Source of the DNA: Pseudaminobacter salicylatoxidans
GTDB taxonomy: Bacteria; Pseudomonadota; Alphaproteobacteria; Rhizobiales; Rhizobiaceae
NCBI RefSeq assembly: GCF_003148475.1
Contig: NZ_QGGG01000024.1
Location: forward strand, 1 to 38,995
DNA: 38,995 nucleotides
Direction: 5' to 3'
The position numbers were made by a program, and so were the translations under genes. The notes beneath the pieces are model-generated. The model was given only the letters and a program-made list of their open reading frames with translations. It searched no databases and was not told where the DNA came from. Positions 1 to 16,502 of the stretch are shown one piece after another (positions within the stretch are counted from its first letter, which is position 1; each line of letters starts with the position of its first letter).

Positions 1-94
1 AGTCGGGCTACGCCCTCCCGCCGTTCCCCGCTTGCGGCGCCAAGTGGCCTACTTTTGCGCCGCCCAACGGCCTGGTTTTGCTCCGCCGTTGACA
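1..94 (-). mobile_element. Terminus of an IS21-like insertion sequence (partial)
   Basis: Read on the minus strand from position 94, the sequence begins TGTCAACGGCGGAGC. It then carries two imperfect copies of a 21-bp unit (plus-strand 61-81 and 38-58, 23-bp period), both of the form GCAAAA-nn-AGGCC-nnn-nGGCG. A TG start followed by reiterated subterminal repeats is the usual layout of IS21-family ends, where the repeats bind the transposase IstA. The boundary at 94 coincides with the point where the exporter reading frame stops looking like its family. The rest of the element, including istA and istB, would lie left of the window, so the family assignment rests on the terminus only. Confidence 0.5.
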
Positions 95-429
95 CCCATG
101 CCAACGGACTGGACCTGCGAAAAGGTGAGCTGAAAACCGAGCAGCACAATCGCTGTCCTGAGAATTGGACGTTGGCAGAAGGCGATCCCGGCAGCCGCGC
201 CACGGGGAATCTCAATGATGTTTGCAAACATGATGCCCAAGATGACAGCGAGGATCATCGGGCTGAAAATGGCAAGCGCTGGGAAGCCACGCAGCGAATA
301 GGCCGCACCACTGACGACCGCAGCAAGGAATATCCCAGGTAAGATATCCTGCAGCTTAGTCGTTATCCGAAAAGACGTCGAGTGTTGCTTTGACTGGACC
401 GGGGAACGAGCAGACACTTGATACTCCAT
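95..429 (-). pseudogene. YeiH-type (UPF0324) putative sulfate/sulfite exporter, 5' fragment
   Basis: The first 110 or so residues resemble the N-terminus of the YeiH/UPF0324 family of multi-pass membrane proteins, annotated as putative sulfate exporters. Visible landmarks are a cytoplasmic leader, a hydrophobic segment (ILPGIFLAAVVSGAAYSL), a second (SPMILAVILGIMFANII) and the motif PRGAAAGIAFCQRPILRTAIVLLGF. The family is usually about 340 residues, so two thirds are missing. The frame runs into the IS21-like terminus at position 94 and then reads through IS sequence to a stop at 49. Only the first transmembrane helices remain, so the gene is almost certainly dead. Its position next to a pathway that releases sulfite suggests an original role in sulfite export, which is inference. 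Confidence 0.6.
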
Positions 430-866: not shown

Positions 867-2106
867 CACGGGAATCGGGTGAATTGATTTTCACTTGATG
901 ATGCTGACAAGGAAGTCTTCATTCCAACCCGCGCTCAGTCGTTTCGAAGTCATCGATAGCTTGGCTGGATGGCGACGCAACAGGTTGTGGGCCATATGCT
1001 TGATGGTCGTGAAATTGGCTGGCGCATGATCGGTTCGCACACGGCATTCGTCATCCCTGAAGACGCAATCCATCAGCCAGTGCATACTTTCCACGGACCA
1101 GTGGCGCCGTACGACATCACCGAGCTTGTCGGCGCCGTCAGCTGAAGATGTGATGTAAAAACGCGTTTCCCGTTCGACCTTGGCGTCAATTTCTGTCTCG
1201 CTGTCGACCATGATGATAGCTTTCATGCCCGGCCATTTGTGGCGCTGCTGCAGCCATCCGATGTCGTGGAAGACAGTCACGTTGCGGGTTACGATACGGC
1301 CGTGATCCCCATCGACGGACTTGTGCTGGCTGACCGTGGAGTCGCTGAAATTGCTGGATTTTTGTTCGTTGGAAAAAAGTTCGACATCCTCACGAAGGGT
1401 CCCCTGGTTACCTTTCAGTGCAAGGACGTAGTCAGCCTTTTTGTCGATGATCTTGCTGGCAATGTCACGCTGGCAGCCCATCGCATCAATGGTGATGATG
1501 GCGCCCTCGATGGCCAGCATCTCCAGGAGCTTCGGAATTGCGACGATCTCATTGGACTTCTGCTCAACCTTGACCTGCCCAAGGACCAGGCGTTGCTGGG
1601 CGGCAAAGGCCGAGACCATATGGATGGGGTTGTGCCCACCCTTCTTGCCGGAGCGTCGGCTAGTCTTTCCATCGATGGCGATCACGCCTTCGGGTATGTC
1701 GGTCAGTGCCGCAACCCAATGGACGAAACACTTCTGGAAGTGTTCTGCATCAAGGGCGGCGAACACTTCTCCAATGCGATCGTGGTCCGGCGTTCCGTTG
1801 GCAAAGGGCCGAAAGCGGCGCAGCAGATCAGGCTTCAATCTCCCGAACTCGGCAATCCCGGTGAAGGTCTCGGCCCCGGCCACAACGGCAAGCAAGGAGA
1901 GCAACAGGATCTCATCAAGCGGATAGATCACCTTGCTGAGCTGCCGCGGGTCGGACAGGTCGGAGAAATGATCAAGAAAAACAACGCTTTCAAGAACAGC
2001 TTCTTCGGATACGCTCATGGTCAGAAAATCCCAATCGAATCAATTGGGTTCCCACAGATTCAGCACTTCCCGCAAATGTCACGCATTAACTCGCCCGATT
2101 GCCTTG
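867..2106 (-). mobile_element. Complete ISAs1-family insertion sequence
   Basis: The element is 1240 bp. Its left end reads CACGGGAATCGGGTGAATTG and its right end, read on the minus strand from 2106, reads CAAGGCAATCGGGCGAGTTA. These are imperfect inverted repeats sharing AATCGGG and flanking matches. It is bounded by a perfect 10-bp direct repeat, so the insertion looks intact and relatively recent. It carries one transposase gene on the minus strand and separates the exporter fragment from the catabolic promoter at about 2140-2190. Confidence 0.82.
891..2018 (-). CDS. tnpA: ISAs1-family transposase (DDE type)
   Basis: This 375-residue protein catalyses transposition of the surrounding 1240-bp element. 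It has the ISAs1/H-repeat layout. An N-terminal helical domain contains DPRQLSKVIYPLDEILLL. A DDE core follows, with the first acid in VIAIDGKTSRRSGKK, the second in ITIDAMGCQRDIA, and a C-terminal HWSVESMHWLMDCVFRDD segment supplying the last acid. The length is normal for the family (about 370-380) and there is no frameshift, so it is probably active. The start at 2018 leaves 88 bp to the right inverted end, and the stop lies 24 bp from the left end, as expected for a one-gene IS. Confidence 0.9.
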   Translation of the reverse strand: MSVSEEAVLESVVFLDHFSDLSDPRQLSKVIYPLDEILLLSLLAVVAGAETFTGIAEFGRLKPDLLRRFRPFANGTPDHDRIGEVFAALDAEHFQKCFVHWVAALTDIPEGVIAIDGKTSRRSGKKGGHNPIHMVSAFAAQQRLVLGQVKVEQKSNEIVAIPKLLEMLAIEGAIITIDAMGCQRDIASKIIDKKADYVLALKGNQGTLREDVELFSNEQKSSNFSDSTVSQHKSVDGDHGRIVTRNVTVFHDIGWLQQRHKWPGMKAIIMVDSETEIDAKVERETRFYITSSADGADKLGDVVRRHWSVESMHWLMDCVFRDDECRVRTDHAPANFTTIKHMAHNLLRRHPAKLSMTSKRLSAGWNEDFLVSIIK

Positions 2107-2143: not shown

Positions 2144-2183
2144 TGTTCTAACTTATTGAACAGTGTTTAGATTATATGAACAG
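2144..2183. promoter_or_regulatory. Candidate IclR-family operator upstream of pcaH
   Basis: Three half-sites lie just before the pcaH start: TGTTC at 2144, GAACA at 2158 and GAACA at 2178. The first two form an inverted pair and the last two a direct repeat with a 20-bp (two helical turns) step. Read on the minus strand, CTGTTCATATAATCTAA matches the region before the cycloisomerase gene (7560 onward), which has CTGTTCATATTAAGCTAA followed by CTGTACA exactly 20 bp later. Triple-repeat operators with one palindromic pair plus one direct repeat are known for the IclR-family regulators PcaU and PobR. Binding by the local IclR protein is inference. Confidence 0.55.
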
Positions 2184-2193: not shown

Positions 2194-2931
2194 ATGGCCT
2201 TGTTCCTCCCCGGCTGGCCCGAAGTGCCGGCGGAATATCCCTCCGATAGCGTCGGCATGCATCCGCCTTATGATACGCCGGCCTACATCTTTACCAGAAA
2301 GCGCGCTCCATCCCGGCCCTTAAGATATATTCCGCAGACTGCTACGGAGTTGTACGGGCCTGTGTATGGACACGAAAGTGTTCGTCCAGAAGACTCGGAT
2401 CTGACTCGTCAGCATGACGGAGAGCCGATAGGAGAGCGCATTCGAATTACGGGGCGTGTTATCGATGAAGACGGCCGCGGCGTTCCAAACGCACTATTGG
2501 AAATCTGGCAGGCGAACGCAGCTGGTCGCTATATTCATAAGTTAGATCAGCACTTAGCACCCCTTGACCCAAACTTTTCGGGCGCTGGCCGTACCGTTAC
2601 CGGAAGCGACGGCTCATATTCATTTATTACGATTATTCCTGGTGCTTATCCGGTCGTGGGACTGCACAACGTCTGGCGTCCACGCCACATTCACATCTCT
2701 TTATTCGGGCCGTCATTTTTGAGCCGCTTGGTCACCCAACTCTACTTCGAGGGCGATCCCCTACTCAGATATGACTCCATCTATAATGCAGCGCCGGATT
2801 TCTCAAAGAGAGGAATGGTGGCTTCGCTCGATCTTGAGGCTACACAGTCTGAATGGGGCTTAACTTACCGCTTTGACATTGTTCTGCGGGGCCGAAACGG
2901 GAACTATTTCGAGGAAACTCATGCGCATTGA
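2194..2931 (+). CDS. pcaH: Protocatechuate 3,4-dioxygenase-type beta subunit; likely 4-sulfocatechol dioxygenase
   Basis: This 245-residue protein is the iron-binding subunit of an intradiol ring-cleaving dioxygenase that opens catechols between the two hydroxyls. All four Fe(III) ligands are visible: Tyr113 (ANAAGRY), Tyr152 (PGAYP), and His165 and His167 (WRPRHIHIS), plus the catalytic Arg162. The N-terminal part, with YIFTRKRAPSRPL, is typical of beta subunits. Around the second Tyr ligand it differs from the Pseudomonas putida enzyme as I recall it: the PYPWR segment is YPVV here, and WRPAHIH is WRPRHIH. The ATG at 2194 is preferred over a GTG at 2188 for position and similarity. The gene overlaps pcaG by 11 bp. 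With the cluster's hydrolase and maleylacetate reductase, 4-sulfocatechol is a likelier substrate than protocatechuate. Confidence 0.88.
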   Translation: MALFLPGWPEVPAEYPSDSVGMHPPYDTPAYIFTRKRAPSRPLRYIPQTATELYGPVYGHESVRPEDSDLTRQHDGEPIGERIRITGRVIDEDGRGVPNALLEIWQANAAGRYIHKLDQHLAPLDPNFSGAGRTVTGSDGSYSFITIIPGAYPVVGLHNVWRPRHIHISLFGPSFLSRLVTQLYFEGDPLLRYDSIYNAAPDFSKRGMVASLDLEATQSEWGLTYRFDIVLRGRNGNYFEETHAH

Positions 2932-3511
2932 AGCCCCGATGACGATCACACCATCTCAGACAGTCGGTCCCTTCTATGCCTACTGCCTGACGCCAGACGA
3001 CTATCAAACGATCCCTCCTATTTTTGGAAGGAACCTCGCCACCGACGATGCTGTGGGACAGCGCATTTCAATTTCGGGAACGCTCATCGACGGAGATGAT
3101 CATGCCATCCCTGATGGTATGATCGAACTCTGGCAGCCTGATGGAAATGGCAATTTTGTAGGTGCACAAATCAACCCACGAAAGTCATCATTCACGGGCT
3201 TTGGCCGCACCCACTGCAATGAGTCTGGCTCCTTCACATTTCACACTGTGAAACCGGGTCGTGTTCCGACATCCGCAGGGATCTTACAGGCGCCTCACGT
3301 TGCGCTTTCCATCTTTGGAAAGGGATTGAACCGCAGATTATACACGAGAATCTATTTCGCAGATGAAGTCTCTAATGATGAAGACCCGATCTTGGCTCTC
3401 CTGTCGAGTGATGAGCGTGCTACGCTTATCGCAGAAAAGATCGATGATGCCGCCTTTCACATCACAATCCGCCTTCAAGGACAGAGGGAGACGGTTTTCT
3501 TCGAAGTGTGA
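2921..3511 (+). CDS. pcaG: Protocatechuate 3,4-dioxygenase-type alpha subunit; likely 4-sulfocatechol dioxygenase
   Basis: This is the partner subunit of the dioxygenase, 196 residues against about 200 in known alpha subunits. It begins near ITPSQTVGPFYAYCL, the conserved alpha-subunit start. It contains LIDGDDHAIPDGMIELWQPDGNG, the structural counterpart of the beta-subunit core without iron ligands, and TVKPGRVP followed by QAPHVALSIFGKGLNRRLYTRIYF. The GRVP arginine corresponds to the substrate-contacting arginine of alpha subunits. The ATG at 2921 has GAGGA five bases upstream and overlaps the end of pcaH, so the subunits are probably translationally coupled. A second ATG at 2939 is possible. 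It acts in the cytoplasm with PcaH in an alpha-beta multimer. Confidence 0.87.
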   Translation: MRIEAPMTITPSQTVGPFYAYCLTPDDYQTIPPIFGRNLATDDAVGQRISISGTLIDGDDHAIPDGMIELWQPDGNGNFVGAQINPRKSSFTGFGRTHCNESGSFTFHTVKPGRVPTSAGILQAPHVALSIFGKGLNRRLYTRIYFADEVSNDEDPILALLSSDERATLIAEKIDDAAFHITIRLQGQRETVFFEV

Positions 3512-3532
3512 GATCACAAACATAGCACTCGC

Positions 3533-3553
3533 CTGCGAAGGCTGCCTTTGCAG
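3533..3553 (+). other. Intercistronic hairpin between pcaG and dctP
   Basis: CTGCGAAGG and CCTTTGCAG pair (8 of 9) across a CTG loop. There is no following T-tract, so it is more likely an mRNA stability or processing element than a terminator. It sits in the 132-bp gap separating the dioxygenase and transporter genes. Confidence 0.35.
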
Positions 3554-3643
3554 CGCAAGGTAATTCTGACGCCAATCGCGTGGCCGCATGTGTTGAGAAA
3601 GACCGGACTACGTAAGTTTAGCAACATCAAGCCAAGGAGGAAT

Positions 3644-4636
3644 ATGATGTTCTCGAAAATGTTGGTTTCCGCAGTGACCGCGACAGCGCTTCTGTCGACA
3701 TTGCCCGCCTTTGCCCGTGATCTGAAACTTGCCGATTTTCATTCGCCCTCGCATTTTATTGTTGAAGAGGTATATGAGCCTTTTGCGAACGCAGTGTCAG
3801 AGGCAACGGGCGGGGATTTAACCGTCCGACTCTATATGGGAGGGGAGCTTGGCCCAGGCCCAAACGAGCAGTACAATCGTGCTGTCGATGGCGTCGCTGA
3901 TATCGTCTTGGCTATGCCGGGTTACACGGCCTCTACATTTCCATTGACCCTTCTTGCCGACCTGCCCGGTGTGATTGACGCTGAGACCGGTACCGAACGC
4001 ATGCTGGCCAACATTGACAAGCTCTCTCAGGAGTATCGTCGAGTTCAGCTGCTCGCCCTATGGAATAACGCACCGTCGTTTTTGTTCTCTGCGACCAAGC
4101 CAATTCGTAAGCTCGAGGATCTTGCTGGCATGAAGGTTCGCGTCCCATCACGTAACGCAGGCCTTGTGCTCGAAGCGTGGGGAGGTGTTCCCGTTTCCAT
4201 GCCTGCAAGTGAAGTTTATAATGCGATGCAAACGGGGGTCATCGATGGAGCGATGATTGACGCCACAGCTCTGACAGGGTTCAGACTGGAAGAGGTGACA
4301 AACTACATCACAGTCGGCATGGATACGTCGATTTCCCAGTTTTTGATGGTGATGAATCTCGACAGTTTCCAGGAGCTTAGTGAAGAGCAACAAAAAGCTG
4401 TTCTCGATGCTGGTCAGGAAGCCGCACGAAACGGCAATAGGGCTTGGCTCGGCGTTGCATCCACCGCCCTCAAGGACTTCGCTGGAACGGAAGGTAAAGA
4501 AGTAATTACGCTTTCAGAGGAAGAAATCGAGAAATTCAATGCCGCAACTAGTACCGTGGTCGAGAGCGTGATTGAAGAAGTCGAAGCAACAGGCGTTGCA
4601 GCACGCGCCTATGTCGAAGCGCTACAGAATGACTAA
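3644..4636 (+). CDS. dctP: TRAP transporter substrate-binding protein (DctP family)
   Basis: This 330-residue periplasmic solute-binding protein is the receptor of a tripartite ATP-independent transporter. A Sec signal peptide occupies about residues 1-24 (hydrophobic core, cleavage after PAFA). The mature protein has DctP hallmarks: KLADFHSPSHFIVEEVYEPFANAV, GGDLTVRLYMGGELG, and the KPIRKLEDLAGMKVRVPSRNAG segment whose arginine contacts the ligand carboxylate in the family, then ASEVYNAMQTGVIDGAM. AAGGAGG lies four bases upstream of the paired ATGs at 3644 and 3647, which fixes the start. The stop overlaps dctQ. Embedded between the pathway genes, it probably delivers the aromatic sulfonate (for example 4-sulfocatechol), an inference from context only. 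Confidence 0.9.
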   Translation: MMFSKMLVSAVTATALLSTLPAFARDLKLADFHSPSHFIVEEVYEPFANAVSEATGGDLTVRLYMGGELGPGPNEQYNRAVDGVADIVLAMPGYTASTFPLTLLADLPGVIDAETGTERMLANIDKLSQEYRRVQLLALWNNAPSFLFSATKPIRKLEDLAGMKVRVPSRNAGLVLEAWGGVPVSMPASEVYNAMQTGVIDGAMIDATALTGFRLEEVTNYITVGMDTSISQFLMVMNLDSFQELSEEQQKAVLDAGQEAARNGNRAWLGVASTALKDFAGTEGKEVITLSEEEIEKFNAATSTVVESVIEEVEATGVAARAYVEALQND

Positions 4637-5156
4637 CTCTCCGACAATAAAAAAGAAGCAAGGCATCGCCCATTCGATAGTAATCGAATGGGCGGTTGCC
4701 TTCTTAACGTCTCTGTCAGCTCTAGCCTTAGCCATTATCTTATGCACCAGCTTTGTTGGCGTCATCATGCGCTATTTCTTTCAGACCCCAATCCTCGGTA
4801 GTGATGAGATAATTCAGCTAGTCTCGATCGCGTTGGTTATGCTCGCAATGCCAGGCACCGCCCAGCGCGACGGACATGTGCGAGTTGATGTGTTCGATAA
4901 GCATATCGGCGTGTGGGGCCGTTTCATTGGCGACTTGTTCTCGCGTGCCGTAGGCGTCTACCTCATGTACCTCTTGACTTGGCGCTCGTGGCTAAAACTG
5001 CGTGAAGCACTGGAGTATAACGACCTATCCAACATGCTGCGTGTCCCATTCTGGCCATTCTATGGACTCATGGCGCTCGGCGGTGCCCTTTTTGCGGTTG
5101 TTCTGGTCCTGCAAATAGTTGACCTCATTCGCGGGGGTACAGGCGCGCATGACTGA
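4629..5156 (+). CDS. dctQ: TRAP transporter small permease (DctQ family)
   Basis: This 175-residue membrane protein has four hydrophobic segments, the normal DctQ layout: about residues 19-45, 55-75, 93-115 and 137-160. The family motif region MRYFFQTPILGSDEIIQLVSIALVMLA is intact, and the TAQRDGHVRVDVF motif follows it. It bridges the receptor DctP and the large permease DctM in the inner membrane. The ATG at 4629 overlaps the dctP stop by 8 bp and the gene ends inside the dctM start, so the three genes form one translationally coupled unit. Confidence 0.88.
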   Translation: MTNSPTIKKKQGIAHSIVIEWAVAFLTSLSALALAIILCTSFVGVIMRYFFQTPILGSDEIIQLVSIALVMLAMPGTAQRDGHVRVDVFDKHIGVWGRFIGDLFSRAVGVYLMYLLTWRSWLKLREALEYNDLSNMLRVPFWPFYGLMALGGALFAVVLVLQIVDLIRGGTGAHD

Positions 5157-6450
5157 TTTTTCGATTGGCCTCTTCGGCATCGGAGCGCTTTTCGTATTGA
5201 TGGTCTTGCGCATGCCAGTTGGGATGGCGATGCTGACCGTGGGCTTCTTCGGCACGTGGATGCTGAATGGCTTCCGTTCGGCGAACGCCTTAATGGTTAC
5301 GGAGACATTCTCTCAGGTATCCAACTACTCGTTGACCGTCATCCCTCTATTTATATTGATGGGCAATATAGCTTCGGTAGCCGGCTTCAGCCGTGGGCTC
5401 TACGAAGCGGCTTTTGCATGGGTGGGGCGACTCCCTGGAGGTCTTGCTTCGGCTTCAGTCCTTGGGTGTGCGGCGTTCTCCGCCGTCAGTGGCTCATCGG
5501 TGGCGACTGCGGTTACCATTGGACGTGTCGCACTGCCAGAGATGGCGCGTTTCAACTATTCCAGCGGGCTCGCAACGGGTGCGATTGCTGCCGGTGGCAC
5601 CCTTGGTTTCCTTATCCCACCATCAACCGGCTTTGTTATCTACGCCATTCTCACCGAACAAAGCATTGGCCAATTGTTCATGTCGGGTATTCTCCCCGGT
5701 CTCTTGCTTGCAGGCTTGTTCATTCTCACGGTCACCCTCATCTCGCTTCGAAATCCAGAAGCGGGACCGCGCGGAGCTCATGTTCCGCTAAAGGAACGTA
5801 TGGCTGCCGCACTCCGTGCGGCGCCCCTGCTAACGGTAATCATAGTATCAATTGGGGGTATTTATCTTGGTGTATTCACGCCAGTCGAAGCCGCCGGCAT
5901 CGGCGCGGGACTGGTCCTTATCTTGGCTCTATTTACGCGGAAGCTGACTCCGTCAACCGCTTGGCGAGCGGTTAGCGACACGGTCAGCACTACAGCCATG
6001 CTGTACCTGATCATTATAGGCGCAGCAGTCCTCAATCCGTTTCTATCGATGACACAATTGCCGTCGATGTTGGGCGAAGCAATGACGTCTGCTGGTCTCG
6101 GCCCCTATGGCGTGCTGTTTCTTGTCGTTGTTGCCTATCTGATTTTGGGGATGTTCATGGACGGGTTAGCAATGCTGGTCGTGACTGTTCCCATCTTCTA
6201 CCCCATCATGATGTCGATGGGCTTTGATCCGATCTGGTTTGGTGTTGTAGCCGTTATCATGATTGAGATGGGTATGATCACGCCTCCTGTCGGCATGAAT
6301 GTATTTGTCGTGAAAAGTATTGCCGGTGATGTGCCCATGGCCACGATTTTTCGCGGCGTCCTGCCATTCTGGTTTGCAATGGGGTTCTGTCTGCTTTTGC
6401 TCGTACTTTTCCCCCAAATTGCATTGTTTATACCCCAGGCGATGTTCTGA
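5149..6450 (+). CDS. dctM: TRAP transporter large permease (DctM family)
   Basis: This 433-residue polytopic protein with about 12 hydrophobic segments carries out sodium- or proton-driven transport. Recognisable family segments are LTVIPLFILMGNIASVAGFSR, ASVLGCAAFSAVSGSSVATAVTIG, IAAGGTLGFLIPPSTGFVIY and, near the end, MITPPVGMNVFVVKSIAGD. The length is normal for DctM (about 425-440). The start overlaps the dctQ stop (ATGACTGA). It is the last gene of the rightward unit beginning at pcaH and is followed at once by a strong hairpin. Confidence 0.92.
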   Translation: MTDFSIGLFGIGALFVLMVLRMPVGMAMLTVGFFGTWMLNGFRSANALMVTETFSQVSNYSLTVIPLFILMGNIASVAGFSRGLYEAAFAWVGRLPGGLASASVLGCAAFSAVSGSSVATAVTIGRVALPEMARFNYSSGLATGAIAAGGTLGFLIPPSTGFVIYAILTEQSIGQLFMSGILPGLLLAGLFILTVTLISLRNPEAGPRGAHVPLKERMAAALRAAPLLTVIIVSIGGIYLGVFTPVEAAGIGAGLVLILALFTRKLTPSTAWRAVSDTVSTTAMLYLIIIGAAVLNPFLSMTQLPSMLGEAMTSAGLGPYGVLFLVVVAYLILGMFMDGLAMLVVTVPIFYPIMMSMGFDPIWFGVVAVIMIEMGMITPPVGMNVFVVKSIAGDVPMATIFRGVLPFWFAMGFCLLLLVLFPQIALFIPQAMF

Positions 6451-6466
6451 CTTTTTCAGCGAAATA

Positions 6467-6509
6467 CAAGTGTCCCGGCCAACTGCGCAGCGGTTGGCCC
6501 GGACACTTG
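6467..6509. terminator. Bidirectional terminator between dctM and the iclR gene
   Basis: CAAGTGTCCCGGCCAAC at 6467 pairs with the inverted copy ending at 6509, with a single mismatch in 17 positions and a 9-base loop. It sits in the 62-bp gap between two convergent genes, the usual place for a shared terminator. A T-rich run on either side is weak. Confidence 0.7.
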
Positions 6510-6512
6510 CCT

Positions 6513-7295
6513 CTACCTCCTGTTCCACCCCAATGAACGAGACATTTCAGCTGCGGCCTCTTGTACATGAATGGTGCAGAAGGTCAGTTTCTCCTCCCTA
6601 AGACGGCTGGCAGGTCCAACGATTCCGAGCGACGCCACCACTTTGTGGGTCTGGTCACGAATCGGTGCTCCAACCGCATTCACACCTGGTAAGTAGCCGC
6701 CAAGATCGACAGCATAGCCTAAACGCCGAATGTCCTGGAGTTCAGCTCTCAATATCTCAGAATCGACGACCGTTTCCGATGTAAAGCGTTTGAGGGGTTG
6801 CGAAAAGAACTGAGACAGTTGCGGCTCTTCTATGAAGGCAAGCAGAGCTTTGCCGTTTGCAGAGCAATGCAAAGGGGCGCTGCCACCGACGCGAGACGCG
6901 ACACGCATAGGCTCGGTGCTTTCGTTTTTTGCTAGGTAGAGAAGCTCCGAACCGTGCAAAACAGAAAGCGTCACCGTCTCCCCCGTCTTTTCCATCAGAG
7001 CCTTCATGGGGGGCGAGCAAACCTTGACCAGATCTAACTGAGCAAGCTTAGTTCCGGCAAGCTGAACGAGTGCGAGCCCGAGCCGGTATTTTCGAGTCTC
7101 AGGATGCTGCTCAATGAAACCTGAACTGGCGAGGGTGCGGAGCAGATTGTGAACTGTAGCGCTGTTAATATCGAGGATTCTTCCGATTTCGCGTACCCCG
7201 AGCCATTCAACATCGGGGGTGAATAGCTCAAGTAAAGCAAGCGCTTTAGAAACCGTCTGAACTGTGTTTTGTGGCGAATTTGGCTCCAGAGCCAT
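6513..7295 (-). CDS. IclR-family transcriptional regulator
   Basis: This 260-residue regulator has an N-terminal winged helix (about residues 10-70, with WLGVREIGRILDINSATVHNLLRTLASSGF) and a C-terminal effector domain. The effector domain includes GETVTLSVLHGSELLYLAKNES, GSAPLHCSANGKALLAF and the late GVNAVGAPIRD motif. Regulators of this family (PcaR, PcaU, PobR, CatR-like) control aromatic degradation. The frame extends upstream to 7400, but the ATG at 7295 is chosen because GAGAGGA precedes it and homology begins there. It is transcribed away from the cycloisomerase gene and convergent with dctM, so it can act on both rightward units. It may respond to 4-sulfocatechol or a muconate-type intermediate, which is inference. 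Confidence 0.9.
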   Translation of the reverse strand: MALEPNSPQNTVQTVSKALALLELFTPDVEWLGVREIGRILDINSATVHNLLRTLASSGFIEQHPETRKYRLGLALVQLAGTKLAQLDLVKVCSPPMKALMEKTGETVTLSVLHGSELLYLAKNESTEPMRVASRVGGSAPLHCSANGKALLAFIEEPQLSQFFSQPLKRFTSETVVDSEILRAELQDIRRLGYAVDLGGYLPGVNAVGAPIRDQTHKVVASLGIVGPASRLREEKLTFCTIHVQEAAAEMSRSLGWNRR

Positions 7296-7495
7296 AGTCC
7301 TCTCATTCTTGCAAATTGCTGCCAAGCGGCGGGTCCTTCGCGTTACAACTTCGTGAACTGTAAACCGGCGACATGAGTTAGGTCGAAGGCGCGCACTCAA
7401 GTCACCCTACCTGCTTTAGAAACGTACCATTCCATCACACATCGGTTGGAGGGGCATCATACTTCTACCGCTACCAGATTCCTTTTTCTGCCGCT

Positions 7496-7518
7496 TCGGC
7501 GAAGGTGAACTTCGCCGA
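7496..7518. other. Perfect hairpin in the iclR-pcaB divergent region
   Basis: TCGGCGAAG and CTTCGCCGA pair perfectly over 9 bp around a GTGAA loop. It lies about 200 bp upstream of iclR and 130 bp upstream of the cycloisomerase gene. It may be a regulator site or a transcript-end structure, with no T-tract. Confidence 0.4.
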
Positions 7519-7560
7519 CGCAGCAACGCAGATCGCACAGAAATCTTATACGATAAATGC

Positions 7561-7599
7561 TGTTCATATTAAGCTAACGCTGTACATAATAGCCAGTCA
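7561..7599. promoter_or_regulatory. Candidate IclR-family operator upstream of pcaB
   Basis: TGTTC at 7561 and TGTAC at 7581 are separated by exactly 20 bp. They share surrounding bases (CTGTTCATAT, then CTAA) with the inverse of the site upstream of pcaH. The third, inverted box expected near 7595 is degenerate (AGTCA). The site lies about 65-90 bp before the ATG of the cycloisomerase gene, in the 353-bp divergent intergenic region that also carries the iclR promoter. Confidence 0.5.
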
Positions 7600-7648
7600 A
7601 AGTTATAGCTACGGCTCCATCCCTAGATTCATCTTACTGGGCGTTTTG

Positions 7649-8992
7649 ATGTCATTTTCCCCCCTTGATTCAGACCTGTTGGGGCCTCTGTTTACGACGA
7701 AAGAAATGAGGGACGCGCTCTCGGAGCGTCGATTTCTCGGGTTGATGTTGCGAGTCGAAACCGCTTTGGCGCGCGCTCAGGCTGCTGAAGGTTTGGTCAG
7801 CCAAGAGCTTGCCAACTCCATCGCCGGTATAGATCCTGGCTCTCTGGACATTAAGGTACTGGCAGAGCAGACCCGACTTGGAGCGGTCCCTGTCATCCCA
7901 TTCGTAAAATCAGTGCAAGCCATGCTTCCGCCGGATGTAGCAGGTGGCTTCCATTTCGGTACTACGAGCCAAGACATCATGGATACGGCCATGATTCTTC
8001 AAATGGCCAAAGCGGTGGATCTAATCGAAACTGATCTAAGTGCCTTGCTTTCTTCCCTGTGCGAGCTAGCGGAGGAACATTGCGAGACTCCCTGCATCGG
8101 GCGCACAGCTGGCCAACATGCTTCGCCTGTCACATTCGGCTTCAAAGTGGCAGGCTGGTGTGTCGCGATCGCTGAGCACTTAGCTCAGCTTGAGCAACTT
8201 AAACTGCGAGTGCTCGTCCTCTCATTGGCTGGTCCTGTAGGCACACTGACCCAAATGGGCGATCGGGCCGAAGCCGTTGTGACGAGGACTGCGGCGGATC
8301 TTGGATTAGCCGTCCCCGCTATGCCGTGGCACACGCATCGTAGCAGAATTGTTGAACTAGGTAGTTGGTTGGCCATCCTTCTCGGAATTCTAGCGAAGAT
8401 GGCGACAGATGTGCTTCACCTTGCGACAACGGAAGTGGGAGAGGTATCTGAGCCAGCGGTCGCCGGCCGGGGTGGCTCCTCGGCTATGCCTCACAAGCGA
8501 AATCCTGTTGGATCGATGATCATTCTGGCCCAACACTCTGCATCAGTGGGCCACCTTTCGACGTTGGTGAGCGCGATGGCAAGCCTTCATGAAAGGCCCG
8601 TTGGCGCCTGGCATTCTGAATGGCTGGCGCTCCCGTCTCTCGTCGGACTGGCGGCAGGAGCGCTCAGAGAGGCTCGTCTTCTAGCTGGTGGCTTGGAAGT
8701 CGATGCCGCACGAATGTACCGAAACATAGAATTGACAAACGGAATGATATTCAGCGATGCGGTTGCGGGAGGTCTAGCGCAGGCGATGGGACGCGCCGAA
8801 GCTTACACCGCCGTAGAGGAAGAAGTCGCCAACGTCGTCCGTTCAGGTGGGCACCTTCGGGAACGTCTGACCAAACGCTTCCCCGCCCACCATTCCACCA
8901 TCCTGCAGGCATTTGAGCTTGCACCAGCGATCAATGCTGCCGCGAGCCGCTGTCGCGCAGCGCTAATCTCTGTTCGGAAGCAATTGGCATGA
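7649..8992 (+). CDS. pcaB: 3-carboxy-cis,cis-muconate cycloisomerase-type enzyme; likely 3-sulfomuconate cycloisomerase
   Basis: This 447-residue enzyme belongs to the fumarase/aspartase superfamily, as do bacterial PcaB proteins (about 450 residues). It has GTTSQDIMDT (about 104-113) and the signature GGSSAMPHKRNPVGS (about 275-289). Segment GRTAGQHASPVTFG (about 151-164) is typical of PcaB rather than adenylosuccinate lyase. The reaction is lactonisation of the ring-cleavage product, here probably 3-sulfomuconate to 4-sulfomuconolactone. The open frame reaches back to 7505, but the ATG at 7649 gives the family length and lies beyond the operator. No strong ribosome binding site is visible. 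It starts the second rightward unit with the hydrolase and reductase genes. Confidence 0.88.
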   Translation: MSFSPLDSDLLGPLFTTKEMRDALSERRFLGLMLRVETALARAQAAEGLVSQELANSIAGIDPGSLDIKVLAEQTRLGAVPVIPFVKSVQAMLPPDVAGGFHFGTTSQDIMDTAMILQMAKAVDLIETDLSALLSSLCELAEEHCETPCIGRTAGQHASPVTFGFKVAGWCVAIAEHLAQLEQLKLRVLVLSLAGPVGTLTQMGDRAEAVVTRTAADLGLAVPAMPWHTHRSRIVELGSWLAILLGILAKMATDVLHLATTEVGEVSEPAVAGRGGSSAMPHKRNPVGSMIILAQHSASVGHLSTLVSAMASLHERPVGAWHSEWLALPSLVGLAAGALREARLLAGGLEVDAARMYRNIELTNGMIFSDAVAGGLAQAMGRAEAYTAVEEEVANVVRSGGHLRERLTKRFPAHHSTILQAFELAPAINAAASRCRAALISVRKQLA

Positions 8993-9031
8993 CTTGCTAG
9001 TTTCGGCTCAACAGAAAGGAGCTCCAGGAAA

Positions 9032-9931
9032 ATGTTACCCGCTGATCAAGCTGGCATACCGCCTTGCGAAGGGCCTCGCGCGCGCTCTGCGCCAATAAGT
9101 TTTGCAATACCAAAAGGCGCATGGGACACTCATCTCCATGTTTTTGGCCCAACGGCTGTGTTCCCATATGCGGAAAAGCGTCCGTATACTCCGCCGGATT
9201 CACCGCTTGAAGATTATCTGGCGTTGATGGAGCGTTTGGGCATCGAACGGGGTGTCTGTGTCCACCCGAATGTGCACGGGATTGATAATTCAGTGACTAT
9301 TGATGCGGTCGAGCGTTCTGATCGCCGTCTCCTCGGAATAATCAAGCCTCATCGTGATATGACCTTTACGGAACTGCGTGACCTGAAGACCCGCGGTGTA
9401 AGAGGGGTACGTTTCGCATTCAATCCCCAGCACGGTTCCGGCGCACTCGACACCGAACTGTTCGAGCGAATGCATGGTTGGTGCCGTGAACTCGATTGGT
9501 GCATAAACATGCATTTTGCTCCTGATGCTTTGGAGGGGCTATGTGACCTCATCGCGGGAGCTGAAACACCGATCATAATCGACCATTTTGGCAGAGTTGA
9601 AACGGCGGCCGGAGTCAACCAGCTTCCCTTTAAGATCCTACGTGATCTTGCGACTCTTGATCATGTCTGGATTAAGTTGACGGGAGCCGATCGGATCTCG
9701 CATTCAGGTGTTCCATATGACGATGTTGTGCCGTTCGCACACGCCTTAAGTGAGATAGCCCCTGACCGCCTACTCTGGGGAAGCGACTGGCCGCATTCCG
9801 GGTACTTCGACCCGAAGCGCATGCCAGATGACGGAGATTTGTTGAACTTAGTTGCCCGGTTTGCTCCTGACGTCGCTCTCCGGCATAAAATCCTGGTTGA
9901 TAACCCTGCCCGATTGTTCGGCGCCATCTAA
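9032..9931 (+). CDS. LigI-like amidohydrolase; probable 4-sulfomuconolactone hydrolase
   Basis: This 299-residue protein is of the amidohydrolase superfamily, closest in layout to 2-pyrone-4,6-dicarboxylate hydrolase (LigI). Visible elements are DTHLH at 32-36, INMHF at 158-162, IIIDHFGR at 181-188 and LLWGSDWPH at 247-255, whose Asp252 is the expected catalytic base. Known 4-sulfomuconolactone hydrolases belong to this same family and cleave 4-sulfomuconolactone to maleylacetate and sulfite. The flanking cycloisomerase and maleylacetate reductase genes point to that reaction rather than PDC hydrolysis, since no lig meta-cleavage genes are present. AGAAAGGAG lies 10-15 bases upstream of the ATG. 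Substrate is inferred from context. Confidence 0.8.
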   Translation: MLPADQAGIPPCEGPRARSAPISFAIPKGAWDTHLHVFGPTAVFPYAEKRPYTPPDSPLEDYLALMERLGIERGVCVHPNVHGIDNSVTIDAVERSDRRLLGIIKPHRDMTFTELRDLKTRGVRGVRFAFNPQHGSGALDTELFERMHGWCRELDWCINMHFAPDALEGLCDLIAGAETPIIIDHFGRVETAAGVNQLPFKILRDLATLDHVWIKLTGADRISHSGVPYDDVVPFAHALSEIAPDRLLWGSDWPHSGYFDPKRMPDDGDLLNLVARFAPDVALRHKILVDNPARLFGAI

Positions 9932-9945
9932 AGGGCGGATATTCA

Positions 9946-11001
9946 ATGCAACCTTTCGTGTACAATTCAGCTCCTTCAAGGGTTATCTTTGGCCGTGGAG
10001 CATCACGATCACTGGCTGCGGAGCTGGACCGACTAGGGCTGAAAAGAGCGCTGGTACTGTCCACACCGCAACAAGAAGAACAGTCGCTTTCAATCGCGAG
10101 CAACTTAGAATGGCGGTTGGCGGGGTCGTTCCATGAAGCCGCTATGCACACTCCGAGTGAAGTCACGGCGGTGGGTGTCAGGCGAGCGAGCGAGGTCAAT
10201 GCGGACTGCTTGGTTGCTATCGGAGGTGGTTCCACAATTGGTTTGGGCAAAGCAATAGCGTGGCGAACCGATTTGCCACAGGTTGTGGTACCGACGACAT
10301 ATGCGGGGTCAGAAATGACCCCCATACTGGGGCAAACGGAAGATGGGTTGAAAACCACAATCCGTAACCCAAAAATCCAGCCCCAGACGGTGATCTACGA
10401 CGTTGACTTAACTCTGACCTTACCGGCCCAAATTTCTGTTACGTCAGGCTTGAATGCGGCTGCACATGCGGCTGAAGCGCTTTACGCCCGGGACCGCAAT
10501 CCGGTGATTTCCCTTTTAGCAGAGGAAGCTATTCGCGTCCTGACCCAGGCGCTCCCACGGATCGTCGATGACGAGCGAAATGTCGAGGCACGAAGCGAGG
10601 CGTTGTACGGAGCCTGGTTGTGTGGGATTTGTCTCGGCTCCGCGGGAATGGCTTTGCACCACAAATTGTGCCACACGCTTGGGGGCAGTTTCAATTTGCC
10701 TCATGCAGCTACCCACTGCGTGGTACTGCCTTATGCCTTGGACTACAATCGTACGGAAATTCCCGAAGCAATGGCAGCGATGTCGCGCGCAATGGGAGGT
10801 GTGGACGCTGCAAGGGGTTTCCGTGCTCTCGCAAAGAACTTAGGAGCCCCGACGTCCCTCCAAGCATTGGGCTTTGAAGAAGCAGATATAGCGCGCGCAG
10901 CGGAGCTCGCCACGGAAAATGCTTATTGGAATCCACGTCCAATCGAGCTCGCGCCAATACGAACGCTCTTGACCCATGCATGGCGTGGCGATGATTTGTG
11001 A
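9946..11001 (+). CDS. Maleylacetate reductase
   Basis: This 351-residue enzyme of the iron-containing alcohol dehydrogenase superfamily reduces maleylacetate to 3-oxoadipate with NAD(P)H. Visible elements are FGRGASRSL near the start, the nucleotide-binding AIGGGSTIGLGKA (91-103), VVPTTYAGSEMTPILG (114-129) and the histidine-rich active-site region LHHKLCHTLGGSFNLPHAATH (237-257). The length and motifs match maleylacetate reductases (TfdF, ClcE, MacA) more than general alcohol dehydrogenases. It lies 14 bp after the hydrolase gene and closes the operon. Its product would enter the 3-oxoadipate pathway encoded elsewhere. Confidence 0.9.
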   Translation: MQPFVYNSAPSRVIFGRGASRSLAAELDRLGLKRALVLSTPQQEEQSLSIASNLEWRLAGSFHEAAMHTPSEVTAVGVRRASEVNADCLVAIGGGSTIGLGKAIAWRTDLPQVVVPTTYAGSEMTPILGQTEDGLKTTIRNPKIQPQTVIYDVDLTLTLPAQISVTSGLNAAAHAAEALYARDRNPVISLLAEEAIRVLTQALPRIVDDERNVEARSEALYGAWLCGICLGSAGMALHHKLCHTLGGSFNLPHAATHCVVLPYALDYNRTEIPEAMAAMSRAMGGVDAARGFRALAKNLGAPTSLQALGFEEADIARAAELATENAYWNPRPIELAPIRTLLTHAWRGDDL

Positions 11002-11333: not shown

Positions 11334-11371
11334 GGGGTCAGAACAAGAACTGTTCGAAATCATACGCTAAG
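11334..11371 (+). repeat. 38-bp terminal inverted repeat of Tn3-family element 1
   Basis: The 38 bp begin GGGGTCAGAACAAGAA and end CATACGCTAAG. The GGGGTC start, the TACGCTAAG end and the exact 38-bp length are diagnostic for Tn3-family termini. It borders the 3' end of the resolvase gene, whose stop codon lies inside it. No matching opposite end is present in the window, so the element is incomplete. Confidence 0.85.
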
Positions 11372-11960
11372 GTCGAACGGACCGTGAACCGTCGTCTCTG
11401 ACGCGCATGATGGTCTGCCGGCTGGTTTCGAACTTTCTGGCGAGCGCGGAAACGCTCATGCCATTGGCCAGCCCTTCAAGAACGTCTTGCTTCCGCATTT
11501 CGTTGAGCCGCGCCGGTCGACCAAGAATCTTTCCTTCCGATTTTGCCCGTTTGAGGCCGGACTGCGTGCGTTCGATAAGCAGGTCACGTTCGAACTGCGC
11601 GACGGCGTTGATGACGTTCATAGTCATTTTGCCAGCGGAGCTTGCGAGATCGACACCGCCCAGAGCGAGGCAGTGAACCCGGACACCCAATTCCTCCAGT
11701 TTCCCTACTGTGGTGCTCACATCGATGGCGTCCCGCCCAAGACGGTCGAGCTTTGTCACGATGAGCACGTCGCCGGCTTCGAGCTTGTCCATGAGCCGGA
11801 TGAAGCCTCGGCGCTGCGCAATGGCGACACTGCCGGAGACTGTTTCGGTGACGATGCGGCGTGGCTCGATGTGGAAACCGGCTGCCTCGATTTCCTGAAT
11901 CTGGTTTTCAGTCGTTTGGCCGGTCGTGGAGACACGGACGTAGGCAAAGGTGCGTGGCAT
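11367..11960 (-). CDS. tnpR: Tn3-family resolvase (serine recombinase)
   Basis: This 197-residue serine recombinase resolves cointegrates at the adjacent res site. The N-terminal catalytic domain shows [10 protein letters not shown] with nucleophile Ser11, [15 protein letters not shown] and the [16 protein letters not shown] helix. A C-terminal helix-turn-helix ([23 protein letters not shown]) ends the protein. The frame extends upstream to 12137, but the ATG at 11960 is where family similarity begins, leaving 154 bp for the res/promoter region shared with tnpA. It appears intact although its transposon is not. A solo resolvase can still recombine res sites of related elements. Confidence 0.88.
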
Positions 11961-12114
11961 GGGCTCGATTCGTCCGAATAGGCTGTCCGGAATGTCGAGC
12001 ATGTCCATAACTATGTCAAGGTAATTTGTGGACAGTGCGGTTTCACCCTGTACGGAACCGGTCGTTTTCGGACATGCCAAGGGGTCATCGGCAAGATGTT
12101 GTGTGGAGTAAAGA
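11961..12114. promoter_or_regulatory. Candidate res site and divergent promoters of Tn3 remnant 1
   Basis: This short gap between divergent tnpR and tnpA contains inverted TGTC...GACA-type pairs, as in resolvase subsites. One is TGTCAAGG...TGTGGACA at 12014-12034, another runs from TGTACGG at 12049 to CGGACA ending at 12074, and there are further TGTCC motifs near 11972-12005. Placement and motif type fit a three-subsite res, but the exact subsites are not determined. Confidence 0.55.
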
Positions 12115-13461
12115 ATGGCCCGACGGAAGCTTCTCAAAATCCAGGATCGACAGGAGCTGTTCGGCGTGCCGATCGATGAAGACAGCCTGATCCGTCACTA
12201 CACTCTGTCTCCAGCCGATCGGCTGGAGATCGCAGTCCGAAGACGCAAACATAACCAGCTCGGCTTTGCTGCCCAGCTTTGCATGATGCGATATCCGGGC
12301 AGGACGCTCATGGCGAACGAAATACCGCCGCGGGGAATGCTCAACTATATCGCCGAGCAATTGGATGCCGATCCAGAAAATTTCAGTTCTTATGCGAGGC
12401 GAGAACCGACCCGGCTGGAACACGTATCGCACCTCCTCGCCTATCTTGGGATGAGAACTGCAGCAGCTCCGGACCGGCGGGCCGCCTTGATGTCGGCGAT
12501 CGAAACGGCAGCGACGACAGACAAAGGGTCTTCTATTGCCAAGGCAATCATCACCACCATGCGGGACCGCAATGTGGTGCTTCCTGCGCCAGACACTGTA
12601 GAGCGGATCGGGCTAGCGGCGCGCGCTATAGCGCGACGGCGTGCGGAAACGGCGTTGATCTCCGGCTTTTCCCCTGAGCAACTTCAGAGTCTTGACGATT
12701 TGCTGAAGGTCGATCCTGCAATCGCACAGACGCGGTTCCATTGGCTACGATCGGCTCCGGACGCACCCGGCGCCAGCAACCTGGTCGCGATGATGGAAAG
12801 GCTCTCCTTCATTCGCGCCATCGACATCGATCCCCGTCTGCAGGGCCGCATCCATTCCGGGCGCTGGGACCAGATGATCCGGGAGGGCGATGTTACGCCG
12901 GCCTGGCTTACCGCTGATTTCAACGCCAGCCGTCGGCGCGCGACGATCGTCGCCCAGGTTATCAAACTCGGCCAGAAGCTGACTGACGATGCGGTCACCA
13001 TGTTCATCAAGCTGATCGGCAGGCTCTTTTCCCGGGCCAACAATCGCAAGAAGCAGCGCCATGCCGAAACGCGTAAAGAGACGGCCAAGGCGCTCCGGCT
13101 GTTTCTCGATACGATTTCCGCCCTTCAGGCCGCCAACGACAATGATGAGGATGCGATCGAGACGATCAACCGGCACGTCGGCTGGCATCGTCTTTTGCAG
13201 GCAAAGCCCGCTCTCGAGGCCATGGTGGAAAATGGAGATCCAGATCCATTGCTTGTGGCGGTGGAGCAATATGCGAGCGTCCGCAAATATGCGGCGCTGT
13301 TTCTACGGACCTTCGCTTTCCGCTCGGCTCGCCGGAACGATCCCCTGCTTGCGGCGATCGAGATCCTCAAATCCCTCTACGAAGATGGGCGGCGCAGCCT
13401 TCCAGATCGGGTTCCGGTTGCCCATCTCGGCGTGACGGCCCGCAAATTGGGCTCTGAGTAG
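12115..13461 (+). pseudogene. tnpA: Tn3-family transposase, N-terminal part only
   Basis: About 445 residues of a Tn3-family transposase N-terminus remain, starting [19 protein letters not shown]. It contains the DNA-binding region ([35 protein letters not shown]) that recognises the terminal repeats. Full-length TnpA is about 1000 residues with a C-terminal DDE domain, which is missing. The frame enters the terminal repeat of the second Tn3 element at 13449 and stops at 13461 after a few foreign codons. Transposition activity is lost, though the fragment could still bind terminal repeats. Confidence 0.85.
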
Positions 13462-13486
13462 CAACGGAACAGAAAACACACATAAG
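13449..13486 (+). repeat. Left 38-bp terminal inverted repeat of Tn3-family element 2
   Basis: It begins GGGCTCTGAGTAGCAACGG and ends ACATAAG, 38 bp long. It matches the inverted copy at 17691-17728 except at a few positions. The five bases outside are AAATT. Confidence 0.88.
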
Positions 13487-13491
13487 CTTGC

Positions 13492-16400
13492 CTACAGGTC
13501 GTCGATTCCTGCGGTTCGGGGATCGCGCAGCGGCCTGAGTTCGCCACGCGCGATGATTTCCGGCAGTGTGAAGGCGTAACGGCCGAGCATGTTGATGTGG
13601 CCGAAGCTCAACGGGGAAAGGTGGGCGACGTCCTCGGACTTCACCTCGTATCCTTCGGCGCGCAGCTGATTGAGAGCGGCGTCCATATAGATCGTGTTCC
13701 ACAGGACGACGACGTTGACCACCAGGCCGAGCGAGCCGAGCTGGTCCTCCTGACCGTCGCGATAGCGCTGGCGCAGTTCGCCACGCTTGCCGTGGAAGAT
13801 CACGCGCGCCAGCCTGTGGCGATTTTCGCCGCGGTTGAGCTGTATGAGGATGCGCCGGCGATAGCTCTCGTCATCGATGAACCGCAGCAGGTAGAGCGTC
13901 TTGATCAGGCGTCCCAGCTCCTGGAGCGCACGGGCCAGTTTCATCGGGCGATCGTTGGTCTGGAGGGTGCGGGTGAGCCCGGCGGCTCGCACGACGCCGA
14001 GTTTCAGCGACCCGGCGAGGCGCAGGAGGTCGTCCCAGTGGTCGGCGATGAGGCGCACGTTGATCCGGTTCGCCGCAAGCCCGTCGAGCAGGCCGTAATC
14101 AGCTTTCCTGTCCACCCGCCAGAACCGGGAGCCGCCGATGTCGGCGATGCGAGGACTGAACTGGTAGCCGAGGAGATGGAAGATTCCGAAGATCGTGTCG
14201 GTGTAGCCTGCGGTGTCGGTCATGATCTCGGTTGGAGAAAGCTCGGTTTCCTGCTCCAGGACGAGGGCCAGGAGATAAAGGCTGTCGCGCAACGTTCCGG
14301 GAATGGTGATCGCGTTGAGGCCGGTGTACTGGTCGGACGCCAGATTGTACCAGGTGACGCCGCGCTCGTGTCCGAAGTAGTGAGGATTGGGGCCGGAATG
14401 AATGGTGCGCACCGGCACGACAAAGCGCAAGCCGTCGGCCGAGGCAACTTCGCCGCCGCCCCAGGATCGGGCGAGTGGGACCGCGTTCTGCGCCGCCACC
14501 AGTGCTGCGTTGGCGGCGGTCAGCGTCTCGGCGCGCAGAAAGTTCTGTTTCACCCAGCTCAGCCGCGATCGGCGAAGCGCCGGGCTGTCCCGCCGGACAA
14601 GCGGCTCGAAGCCAGTATTGCAGGCTTCGGCCAGGAGAACCGCGCTGACGCTCGTCGCGATGTCCTCGGCGCGTGAACCACCTTCGCTCGCGTGGGTAAA
14701 ATGCTCGGCAAATCCAGTCCGCGCCTGTATTTCGAGGATAAGTTCAGGCAGATCGACATGCGGGAGTCGGGTCTCGATTTCGGTGCGAAGCGCCACGAGG
14801 CTCGGCGGCTCCTCGATCTTGTCGAGCTGCGCGACCGACAGATCGACGCCGCCGGCCGTCGTCTCGAACGACAGCGCCGGGTTGGCGGGCGCGCGATCGG
14901 CGGTTTCCCGATAGGCGAGATCAAGGCGTGTCGAAAGCCGGGTCAGTTCCTCGTCGGCCGACGCCGAGACCCCGACCGTGCGACAAACGGCCGGGCGAGC
15001 CGCTTCCCAGGCCGCGCCGGACAGAAGACCCTTGCGTGGATCGGCGTAGCGCAGCGACCGGGACGCAAAGACATCCCGCCGGCGGATCGTGCGCCGGAGC
15101 TGATCAAGTACGCACAGCCGATAGCCGAACAGGTCAATCTTGCCGTCGGCCGCTTTCAACTGGCCAATCCACTCCTTCGGTGCGAAGGCGGCGGGTGCGG
15201 GTCCAGACCGTTTGACGCCATCTTGAAGGGCACGCACGTGTTCAACGGCATCCAGGAGCGACCTGCCCGCCGGAGCCGCGTCGAGGTCGAGCCCACGCAG
15301 CAGCGCCGGCGCGAAGCGAAACTGCCCCCGGTGTTTCCTGAGTTCGGCGAAATAGACGTCGTCGGGCGGCTCGGCGAGTGCACCCACCCGGTCATAGGCG
15401 GTTTTCAGGAGATCGCGCCCCACGGTCTCGAAGATGACGGCACGAACCTCGGCGTCCGGTGTCGCCTCGTCGAACAAAACGGCGGCGGCGTCGCGCAGCT
15501 TCAGCGCAGCGGCATCGAGGTCGCGAAGCGAGCGCAGACGCGCCTCCCTTGAGGCCGCCTGCGCATTGGAAAAGATCGTCGTGGTGACGACGTCGAACAG
15601 ATCGATGACGTCGTCGCTGGCGCTGGCCTCGAGTGTGCGGATGAACGCCAGAAGCGTTGCGGTCCGCCGATCGTCCGGAAGTCGGGCGACCGCCTGTGCC
15701 TTGGCAGCGGACGCGAAGCGGGCGAGCGCATTGATGCGACCAGGCGGCAGCCTGTCGATTTCCGGCAACCCTTCCGTGATGACGCGGATTTCGTCGAGAC
15801 GCGCCAGCGCCCGGCTGATCTCTGGGCCGCTCTGGATATAAGGACCGTCCCGAAGGCGATCGAGGGGGCTCTGGCGGACACCTTCCGGCACCACGACGAG
15901 AGCGTCGAGCCGCTCGCGCTGTTCGGGCGTCACCTTGTCGACGAGGCGGCGGAACAGACGGGCATTGGCGCGCGCGCGAACGCGGGAGACCGTCCGCTCG
16001 AGCACCGACAGTCCCGGCAGCAAAACCTTGTTGGCGAGCAGAAAGGAAACAGCTCTATCGAACAGCGCCGAGGGCCGGTCGGTGCCGGTCCAGCAAAGGG
16101 CGTAGAGAAAGCGGCTCAGCCGGAACGACACGCCGGGATCGGTGACGGAGCGATAGCCATAGCGTGCCCGGATGCGCGGGATATGTCGCCAGCGCGCCCG
16201 GTCGTTCGCATAGGCGAAAATCGCGCCCGGATCATTGAGGCCGAGTTGCTCTGCCGCGTACCCCACGGCGGACGCCGGAGCTGTCGCAAGGTCCTCGAGA
16301 AACACCCCGAGCAGGCGAACCGATCCGAGCTGGACGGCGACGCCCAGGCGGTTGCGATCGCCGCGATGCTCGGCGACAAACGCGCGATCGGCGTCATCGA

Positions 16401-16494: not shown

Positions 16495-16502
16495 GGGCTC
16501 TC

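Follow-up and report, generated by a model that had tools for sequence, protein, structure and literature searches.

What would a second set of protocatechuate-type genes, joined to an importer, do for a bacterium that already holds such a set elsewhere in its genome? The question is raised by a gene cluster of Pseudaminobacter salicylatoxidans located at 2194-11001 of the DNA analysed here, which is called the window (bases 1-38995 of the 46,790-base contig NZ_QGGG01000024.1, in a draft genome of 4.84 Mb). A reading made without database searches (the sequence-only reading) had assigned it to the lower pathway of 4-sulfocatechol, with its own tripartite ATP-independent periplasmic (TRAP) transporter and IclR regulator. 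This pathway assignment is very probably right, and the hydrolase, the type II PcaH and PcaB, and the maleylacetate reductase all agree with it by sequence; with a probability of roughly 85%, the cassette serves the uptake and breakdown of 4-sulfocatechol or of a sulfonated compound that is converted to it.

The predicted 4-sulfomuconolactone hydrolase

The gene on which the assignment turns is that of the hydrolase. Against the NCBIfam model of 4-sulfomuconolactone hydrolase (SlmHylase, NF042924; cut-off 500 bits) its product scores 594 bits, and the reference proteins of Hydrogenophaga intermedia S1, Novosphingobium resinovorum SA1 and locus L005, a Kiloniellaceae metagenome-assembled genome (MAG), score 603, 607 and 574, respectively. 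Proteins of a Burkholderiales MAG (430), Delftia (369) and Bradyrhizobium (354) stay below the cut-off, and a Roseomonas protein with extradiol-type dioxygenase genes among its neighbours reaches 310 bits. In a tree of 16 rows (without L004, which is the same as L003), the eight hydrolases from clusters bearing a maleylacetate reductase gene form one group (100/100), apart from the eight others; this group unites the window protein with the hydrolases of two sulfanilate degraders and is separate from the LigI-like proteins. The motifs RFAFNP[QE]HG and PH[ST]GYFD are present in all eight cluster rows and in none of the other eight. The sequence-only reading had let its case depend on the hydrolase not grouping with the 2-pyrone-4,6-dicarboxylate (PDC) hydrolases, and the outcome was the opposite of such a grouping. 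A LigI of known function was compared separately, not as a row of the tree; the fold and an HxH motif are common to both proteins, and neither the grouping nor the motifs at the two compared sites make the window protein a LigI. Its structure model (71.6) has a LigI-type fold at 34% identity, as would be expected of a sister family of LigI.

Type II PcaH, PcaG, PcaB and the reductase

On another contig of the same genome (C1) pcaH, pcaG and pcaB lie side by side as a type I set, so that the set in the window is a second one. PcaH and PcaB of the window fall in type II clades distinct from it. The identity of PcaH is 83% to its counterpart in SA1 and 46% to the type I copy of the host, that of PcaG 67% and 39%; PcaH forms a clade (100/99) with the proteins of SA1, L005, Nitratireductor alexandrii and locus L007 (the Burkholderiales MAG), the host's type I enzyme being on another branch. 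PcaB is 65% identical to the SA1, 54% to the S1 and 33% to the host type I protein, and groups with SA1 (97/99) and with S1 (91/97). The reductase stays below every NCBIfam cut-off; among solved structures it is closest to the maleylacetate reductases 3w5s (422 bits) and 3hl0, and it is 71% and 61% identical to the products of the genes at the equivalent place in SA1 and S1.

At the site following GAYP (residue 152 if base 2200 is taken as the start, 154 if the ATG is), PcaH of these clusters differs from the other PcaH proteins aligned. Valine is found there in all six aligned rows from hydrolase-bearing clusters (window, N. alexandrii, L005, L007, SA1 and Bradyrhizobium), which amount to four different sequences, window and N. 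alexandrii being the same and likewise L005 and SA1; tryptophan is found in 49 of 49 other rows (22/22 in one alignment, 27/27 in another). The first set of rows covered 20 of the 29 non-window loci together with the host's own type I protein and L122, the second 27 of 29 loci from a separate list, leaving out L149 (stop) and L088. The PcaH of Antarcticimicrobium luteum, which has the valine too, was left out of the count, and the single pcaG-named gene of Delftia lies outside it. The host and the Burkholderiales MAG each have one PcaH copy of either kind. Because the aligned PcaH and hydrolase columns of L005 are identical to those of SA1, L005 is not independent of it. The PcaH of Bradyrhizobium groups with the host type I enzyme (97/100); as it sits on this branch, its valine looks convergent, that is, like a separate change. 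The tryptophan is presumably Trp449 of the Pseudomonas putida enzyme, near the substrate, for which a search found no confirming paper. Loss of this pocket tryptophan is proposed to make room for the sulfonate.

Gene layout and proposed pathway

The gene set named by the sequence-only reading is borne out by open frames and family scans: all nine genes of 2194-11001 are open frames at their places (Table 1), their starts having been chosen among in-frame start codons. The starts of pcaG, dctQ and dctM overlap the 3′ end of the preceding gene. The extent assigned to the cluster was too small, as a truncated yeiH gene further upstream also belongs to the cassette. The reported absence of pcaC and pcaD holds for the cassette and only there, contig C1 carrying the separate type I set. 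No lig genes stood out among the open reading frames (ORFs) of the window that were read, the scan for them not being exhaustive.

Table 1. Features of the window and the functions predicted for them
Feature	Position	Strand	Basis
yeiH fragment, broken at about 93	49..429	-	PF03601, 53.9 bits
Insertion sequence (IS), 1240 bp, transposase 891-2018	867..2106	-	DDE_Tnp_1 and DDE_Tnp_1-associated; ends match 16/21
Two tandem operator-like palindromes TGTTYN9GAACA	2144..2182	+	Palindrome ends 31 and 11 bases ahead of the pcaH start codon
pcaH2, type II protocatechuate/4-sulfocatechol dioxygenase, beta subunit	2194..2931	+	TIGR02422 (protocat_beta) 342 bits, cut-off 296; tree; residue counts
pcaG2, dioxygenase alpha subunit	2921..3511	+	TIGR02423 (protocat_alph) 258 bits, cut-off 126; 67% to SA1 PcaG
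dctP, TRAP substrate-binding protein	3644..4636	+	PF03480; PDB matches; gallate-cluster relatives
dctQ, TRAP small permease	4629..5156	+	PF04290
dctM, TRAP large permease	5149..6450	+	PF06808; TIGR00786 326 bits
iclR-family regulator, both domains present	6513..7295	-	PF01614, PF09339
pcaB2, 3-sulfomuconate cycloisomerase (type II PcaB)	7649..8992	+	PcaB models; identities; tree
4-Sulfomuconolactone hydrolase	9032..9931	+	NF042924 594 bits (cut-off 500); clade 100/100; LigI-like fold
Maleylacetate reductase, Fe-ADH family	9946..11001	+	PDB relatives 3w5s, 3hl0; SA1/S1 genes at equivalent place

From this gene set we infer the individual reactions, the transported compound, the inducer and the role of export. 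DctPQM would carry the anion through the inner membrane; PcaH2G2 would open the ring to 3-sulfomuconate, which PcaB2 would close to 4-sulfomuconolactone. The LigI-like hydrolase would open the lactone, whereby sulfite leaves and maleylacetate forms, and the reductase would convert maleylacetate to 3-oxoadipate, which could then enter the host's ordinary 3-oxoadipate route. The IclR protein may regulate these genes, possibly by way of the palindromes in front of pcaH, and an exporter of the YeiH type, broken here, would remove sulfate or sulfite. The reaction sequence for 4-sulfocatechol was reportedly established by Contzen, Halak and co-workers; PMC5632844 gives the gene names and describes how 4-sulfocatechol is converted to maleylacetate.

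The TRAP transporter

All three subunits of a TRAP transporter are present. Eight of the 12 plasmid matches listed for DctP have 51-56% identity; the surroundings of four of these were examined, and three adjoin gallate-pathway genes and one (Salipiger) does not. A fifth relative examined (36% identity) adjoins a P450 gene. The relatives from gallate clusters fit a dihydroxy-aromatic anion as a candidate ligand, and since 4-sulfocatechol is the sulfonate analogue of protocatechuate, a gallate-type binding site would be a natural source. Among the best solved relatives of DctP is 7nr2, which we take to be TarP, with a weak match of just 107 bits. The aromatic-acid transporter TarPQM is of the same TRAP family; it differs in its ligands, as TarP binds aromatic acids of the coumarate type (carboxylates; PMC3610893). 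Other importers accompany related clusters: TctC-type binding proteins lie beside those of S1 and L007 (as read by eye) and are annotated in Delftia lacustris. It seems that each lineage has combined these enzymes with an importer of its own, and it is plausible that the TRAP system of the window imports a sulfonated aromatic.

Weighing the alternatives

Several points weigh against the 4-sulfocatechol assignment. Among the eight cluster hydrolases, those of the window and L003 and those of L005 and SA1 (L008) are the same or nearly so. PcaB, best matched by PcaB models, is under the cut-offs of all three NCBIfam models listed for it (394/595, 329/356, 226/371). In the H. intermedia S1 genome PcaH2 was not found (no match at 1e-20), and the characterised S1 dioxygenase stands outside the tree; no pcaB was seen among the ORFs of L007 that were read; and no upper-pathway gene was identified for the cassette. 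The remaining points concern the importer: no TRAP gene is annotated in the 24.9-kb stretch of SA1 (the PLSDB tables being incomplete) or was seen in the 6-kb contig of S1, the nearest DctP relatives point to gallate-like carboxylates and not to sulfonates, and the TRAP binding protein of the Bradyrhizobium cluster is just 26% identical to DctP of the window. A structure model of DctP (4 sequences; predicted local distance difference test score 41) was too poor and was discarded.

These importer points would be accounted for if the TRAP system did not serve the substrate of the cassette while the catabolic genes are rightly assigned, which could hold together with the 4-sulfocatechol explanation. 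It is unlikely, because the TRAP genes are flanked by pcaG and iclR, dctQ and dctM each overlapping the gene ahead, they are almost unchanged in three hosts (see below), and the cluster of Bradyrhizobium also contains a TRAP system, if an unrelated one.

Clearly less probable is a different para-substituted catechol as the true substrate, with a leaving group lost from its lactone and activity towards sulfocatechol being incidental. The neighbourhoods do differ (Rieske, thiolase and CoA-transferase genes in Delftia, a pobA-like gene in Bradyrhizobium, nothing upstream in the window), and for a related upper enzyme, the sad dioxygenase, PMC5632844 and PMC3704786 describe the natural substrate as unknown. 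However, the hydrolase motifs are conserved among the compared clusters, as is the valine in every PcaH from them that was looked at, and S1/PBC and SA1 are known degraders of 4-sulfocatechol (PMC5632844). Similarly improbable is a second ordinary protocatechuate route (PcaHG, PcaB and a PDC-type lactone hydrolase, with TRAP importing hydroxybenzoates). In its favour, PcaHG exceed the cut-offs of the protocatechuate models, the three TRAP relatives mentioned sit in gallate clusters and the hydrolase has a LigI-like fold. Against it, this hydrolase exceeds the 4-sulfomuconolactone cut-off and stays apart from the LigI-like group, a protocatechuate route includes no maleylacetate reductase step, pcaC and pcaD were not seen in the cassette, the genome already has its type I set, and the valine and the hydrolase motifs follow the cluster.

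Relation to known clusters

Degradation of 4-sulfocatechol is thus the preferred explanation, and one of its closest known counterparts is found on plasmid pSA3 of N. resinovorum SA1 (sca genes). There, all five enzymes have relatives (hydrolase 73-75% identical, the others as given above), and a YeiH-family and an IclR gene lie nearby; SA1 differs by TauE/SafE and Gfo/Idh genes, by the lower likeness of IclR (27%) and YeiH (35%), and by pcaHG following the reductase, the order being pcaB, hydrolase and reductase and then, past one intervening gene, pcaH and pcaG. The 6-kb contig of H. intermedia S1 has pcaB, hydrolase and reductase in the order of the window (54-61% identity), and differs in that a TctC-type binding protein (by eye) follows the reductase. 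L005 reads hydrolase, reductase, pcaH, pcaG, and L007 pcaH, pcaG, hydrolase, reductase. The order pcaH2-pcaG2-tnp-pcaB2-4SLH-MAR of H. intermedia PBC, taken from PMC5632844, resembles that of the window.

Plasmids of Bradyrhizobium betae and Bradyrhizobium sp. SK17 (L124, L128) likewise bring together a hydrolase with both motifs, a reductase, pcaHG with the valine, pcaB and TRAP genes. They differ in the hydrolase, which is under the cut-off (354 bits), in PcaH and PcaB, which are on the type I branch, and in having MarR instead of IclR and a pobA-like (4-hydroxybenzoate 3-monooxygenase-like) gene; possibly this cluster is for 4-sulfophenol. Literature searches limited to open-licence papers listed no report of a TRAP-linked 4-sulfocatechol cluster. 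What is new here is the TRAP-equipped mobile layout; the pathway itself is already known from a few sulfanilate degraders.

Control and export

That the regulator is the cassette's own, as the sequence-only reading had it, fits its position and the operator-like palindromes, but the IclR of SA1 is the distant relative noted above. In A. luteum and N. alexandrii an IS, by eye IS66-like, interrupts the gene; both domains are present in the window copy. The two palindromes are the only exact matches of TGTTYN9GAACA in the window, and SA1 and L005 have one match each at the equivalent place before pcaH. With up to two mismatches, there are 67 matches in the window as compared to a mean of 43.5 in shuffled sequences; with up to one mismatch, there are three in the SA1 locus (as many in 34 of 100 shuffles) and three in L005 (2 of 200). 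Because the motif was noticed before it was counted, these numbers do not make a clean test; the motif lies next to the ribosome site, and its support is its place. Scans for promoters and terminators stayed at the level of shuffled sequence.

PF03601, to which the yeiH fragment belongs, is the family that we take to comprise putative sulfate/sulfite exporters. The gene is divergent from pcaH. In N. alexandrii it is intact (348 amino acids, ORF at 642-1688 of L119), and window 93-866 matches this strain at a rounded 100%. The annotated YeiH gene that accompanies the SA1 cluster (the 35% identity extending over 262 residues) lies next to the TauE/SafE gene.

Mobility and distribution

Drafts of A. 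luteum and N. alexandrii carry the cassette as well, with most of its genes at some 98-100% identity. The pcaHG genes are identical at a rounded 100% over some 1.4 kb (PcaH of A. luteum differs in at least two residues), and identical bases number 992 of 993 in dctP, 519 of 528 in dctQ, 1299 and 1298 of 1302 in dctM, 1313 of 1341 in pcaB and 898 of 900 in the hydrolase gene. Over the last 876 bases of the reductase gene just 792 are identical (90%), and after its stop there is no clear similarity, which indicates that the cassette is a mosaic. Both relatives have a transposase gene between pcaG and dctP, where the window copy is undisturbed. The IS of the window, presumably ISAs1-like, lies between yeiH and pcaH within a 10-bp target repeat (CCTGCAACTC, at 857-866 and 2107-2116), and N. 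alexandrii represents the empty site. The two drafts contain identical stretches, and there may be contamination between them; both Antarcticimicrobium and Nitratireductor are marine. Above its cut-off, the hydrolase family was found in one of 61 genomes of the host and its relatives and in one of 385 genomes of the class, both times the host itself; the cassette is therefore rare.

The contig looks plasmid-like. Downstream, 11367-17111 encodes a Tn3-family transposase and two resolvases, followed by transfer genes (trb), RepC and a ParB-domain gene. A separate frame of 448 amino acids at 12115-13461 has the DUF4158 domain, as found at the start of the complete Tn3 transposase (13492-16494), and is perhaps a transposase remnant. 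An exact direct repeat of 319 bases occurs at 33977-34295 and 38676-38994. Among the plasmid records listed (25 of 290), the longest matches to the backbone cover 13-43% of it at 72-77% identity and lie in the trb genes, the hosts being Allorhizobium, Pelagibacterium, Aminobacter, Agrobacterium, Roseibium and others; shorter pieces are at least 99% identical in three plasmid records. In the 7-kb locus L005, an IS21-like gene pair (by eye) adjoins the cluster, and the likeness of this locus to SA1 reflects either that it was transferred recently or that the bin contains a foreign contig.

Possible supply of 4-sulfocatechol

The host genome has eight Rieske places, of which the best match to the Rieske protein of L007 has 28% identity (2.7e-18), the Rieske genes of A. 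luteum and N. alexandrii not having been used as queries and flavin monooxygenases not searched; the same query matches the Rieske genes of these two strains at about 1e-81. A pobA-like gene is seen by eye within the host type I set, so that an upper step may yet exist in the host.

The two distant genera A. luteum (L028) and N. alexandrii (L029) have near-identical genes for a Rieske oxygenase, a thiolase-like protein and a CoA-transferase (by eye). In Delftia plasmids (L123, L127) a set of this kind adjoins the pathway genes; between the sets, the Rieske proteins are 53% and the thiolases, over part of their length, 32% identical. Perhaps the set is a candidate upper pathway for sulfophenyl carboxylates. 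The Rieske oxygenase gene of L007 (6295-7572), which is followed by pathway genes, encodes a protein 63% identical to one of H. intermedia S1 (L108), and a TctC-type binding protein (by eye) lies beside both. The S1 gene was considered as SadA and not called so, because no glutamine-synthetase-like ORF was seen among the surrounding ORFs that were read.

The host may use 4-sulfocatechol that other microbes release, as Agrobacterium radiobacter S2 reportedly does beside S1. A tentative picture would be that of a mobile scavenger cassette without an upper pathway, spread by plasmids between orders, in which the exchange of tryptophan for valine fits the sulfonate and arose independently in Bradyrhizobium.

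Implications

The pathway, so far known from few sulfanilate degraders, here takes the form of a compact unit that lies next to plasmid transfer genes and combines the enzymes with a binding-protein importer and a probable exporter gene; it recurs in two further genera. The exchange of tryptophan for valine offers a testable, one-residue account of how a protocatechuate dioxygenase may come to act on a sulfonate, together with a sequence criterion by which such clusters can be found. If the proposed import is true, an aromatic sulfonate would be the substrate of this TRAP system.

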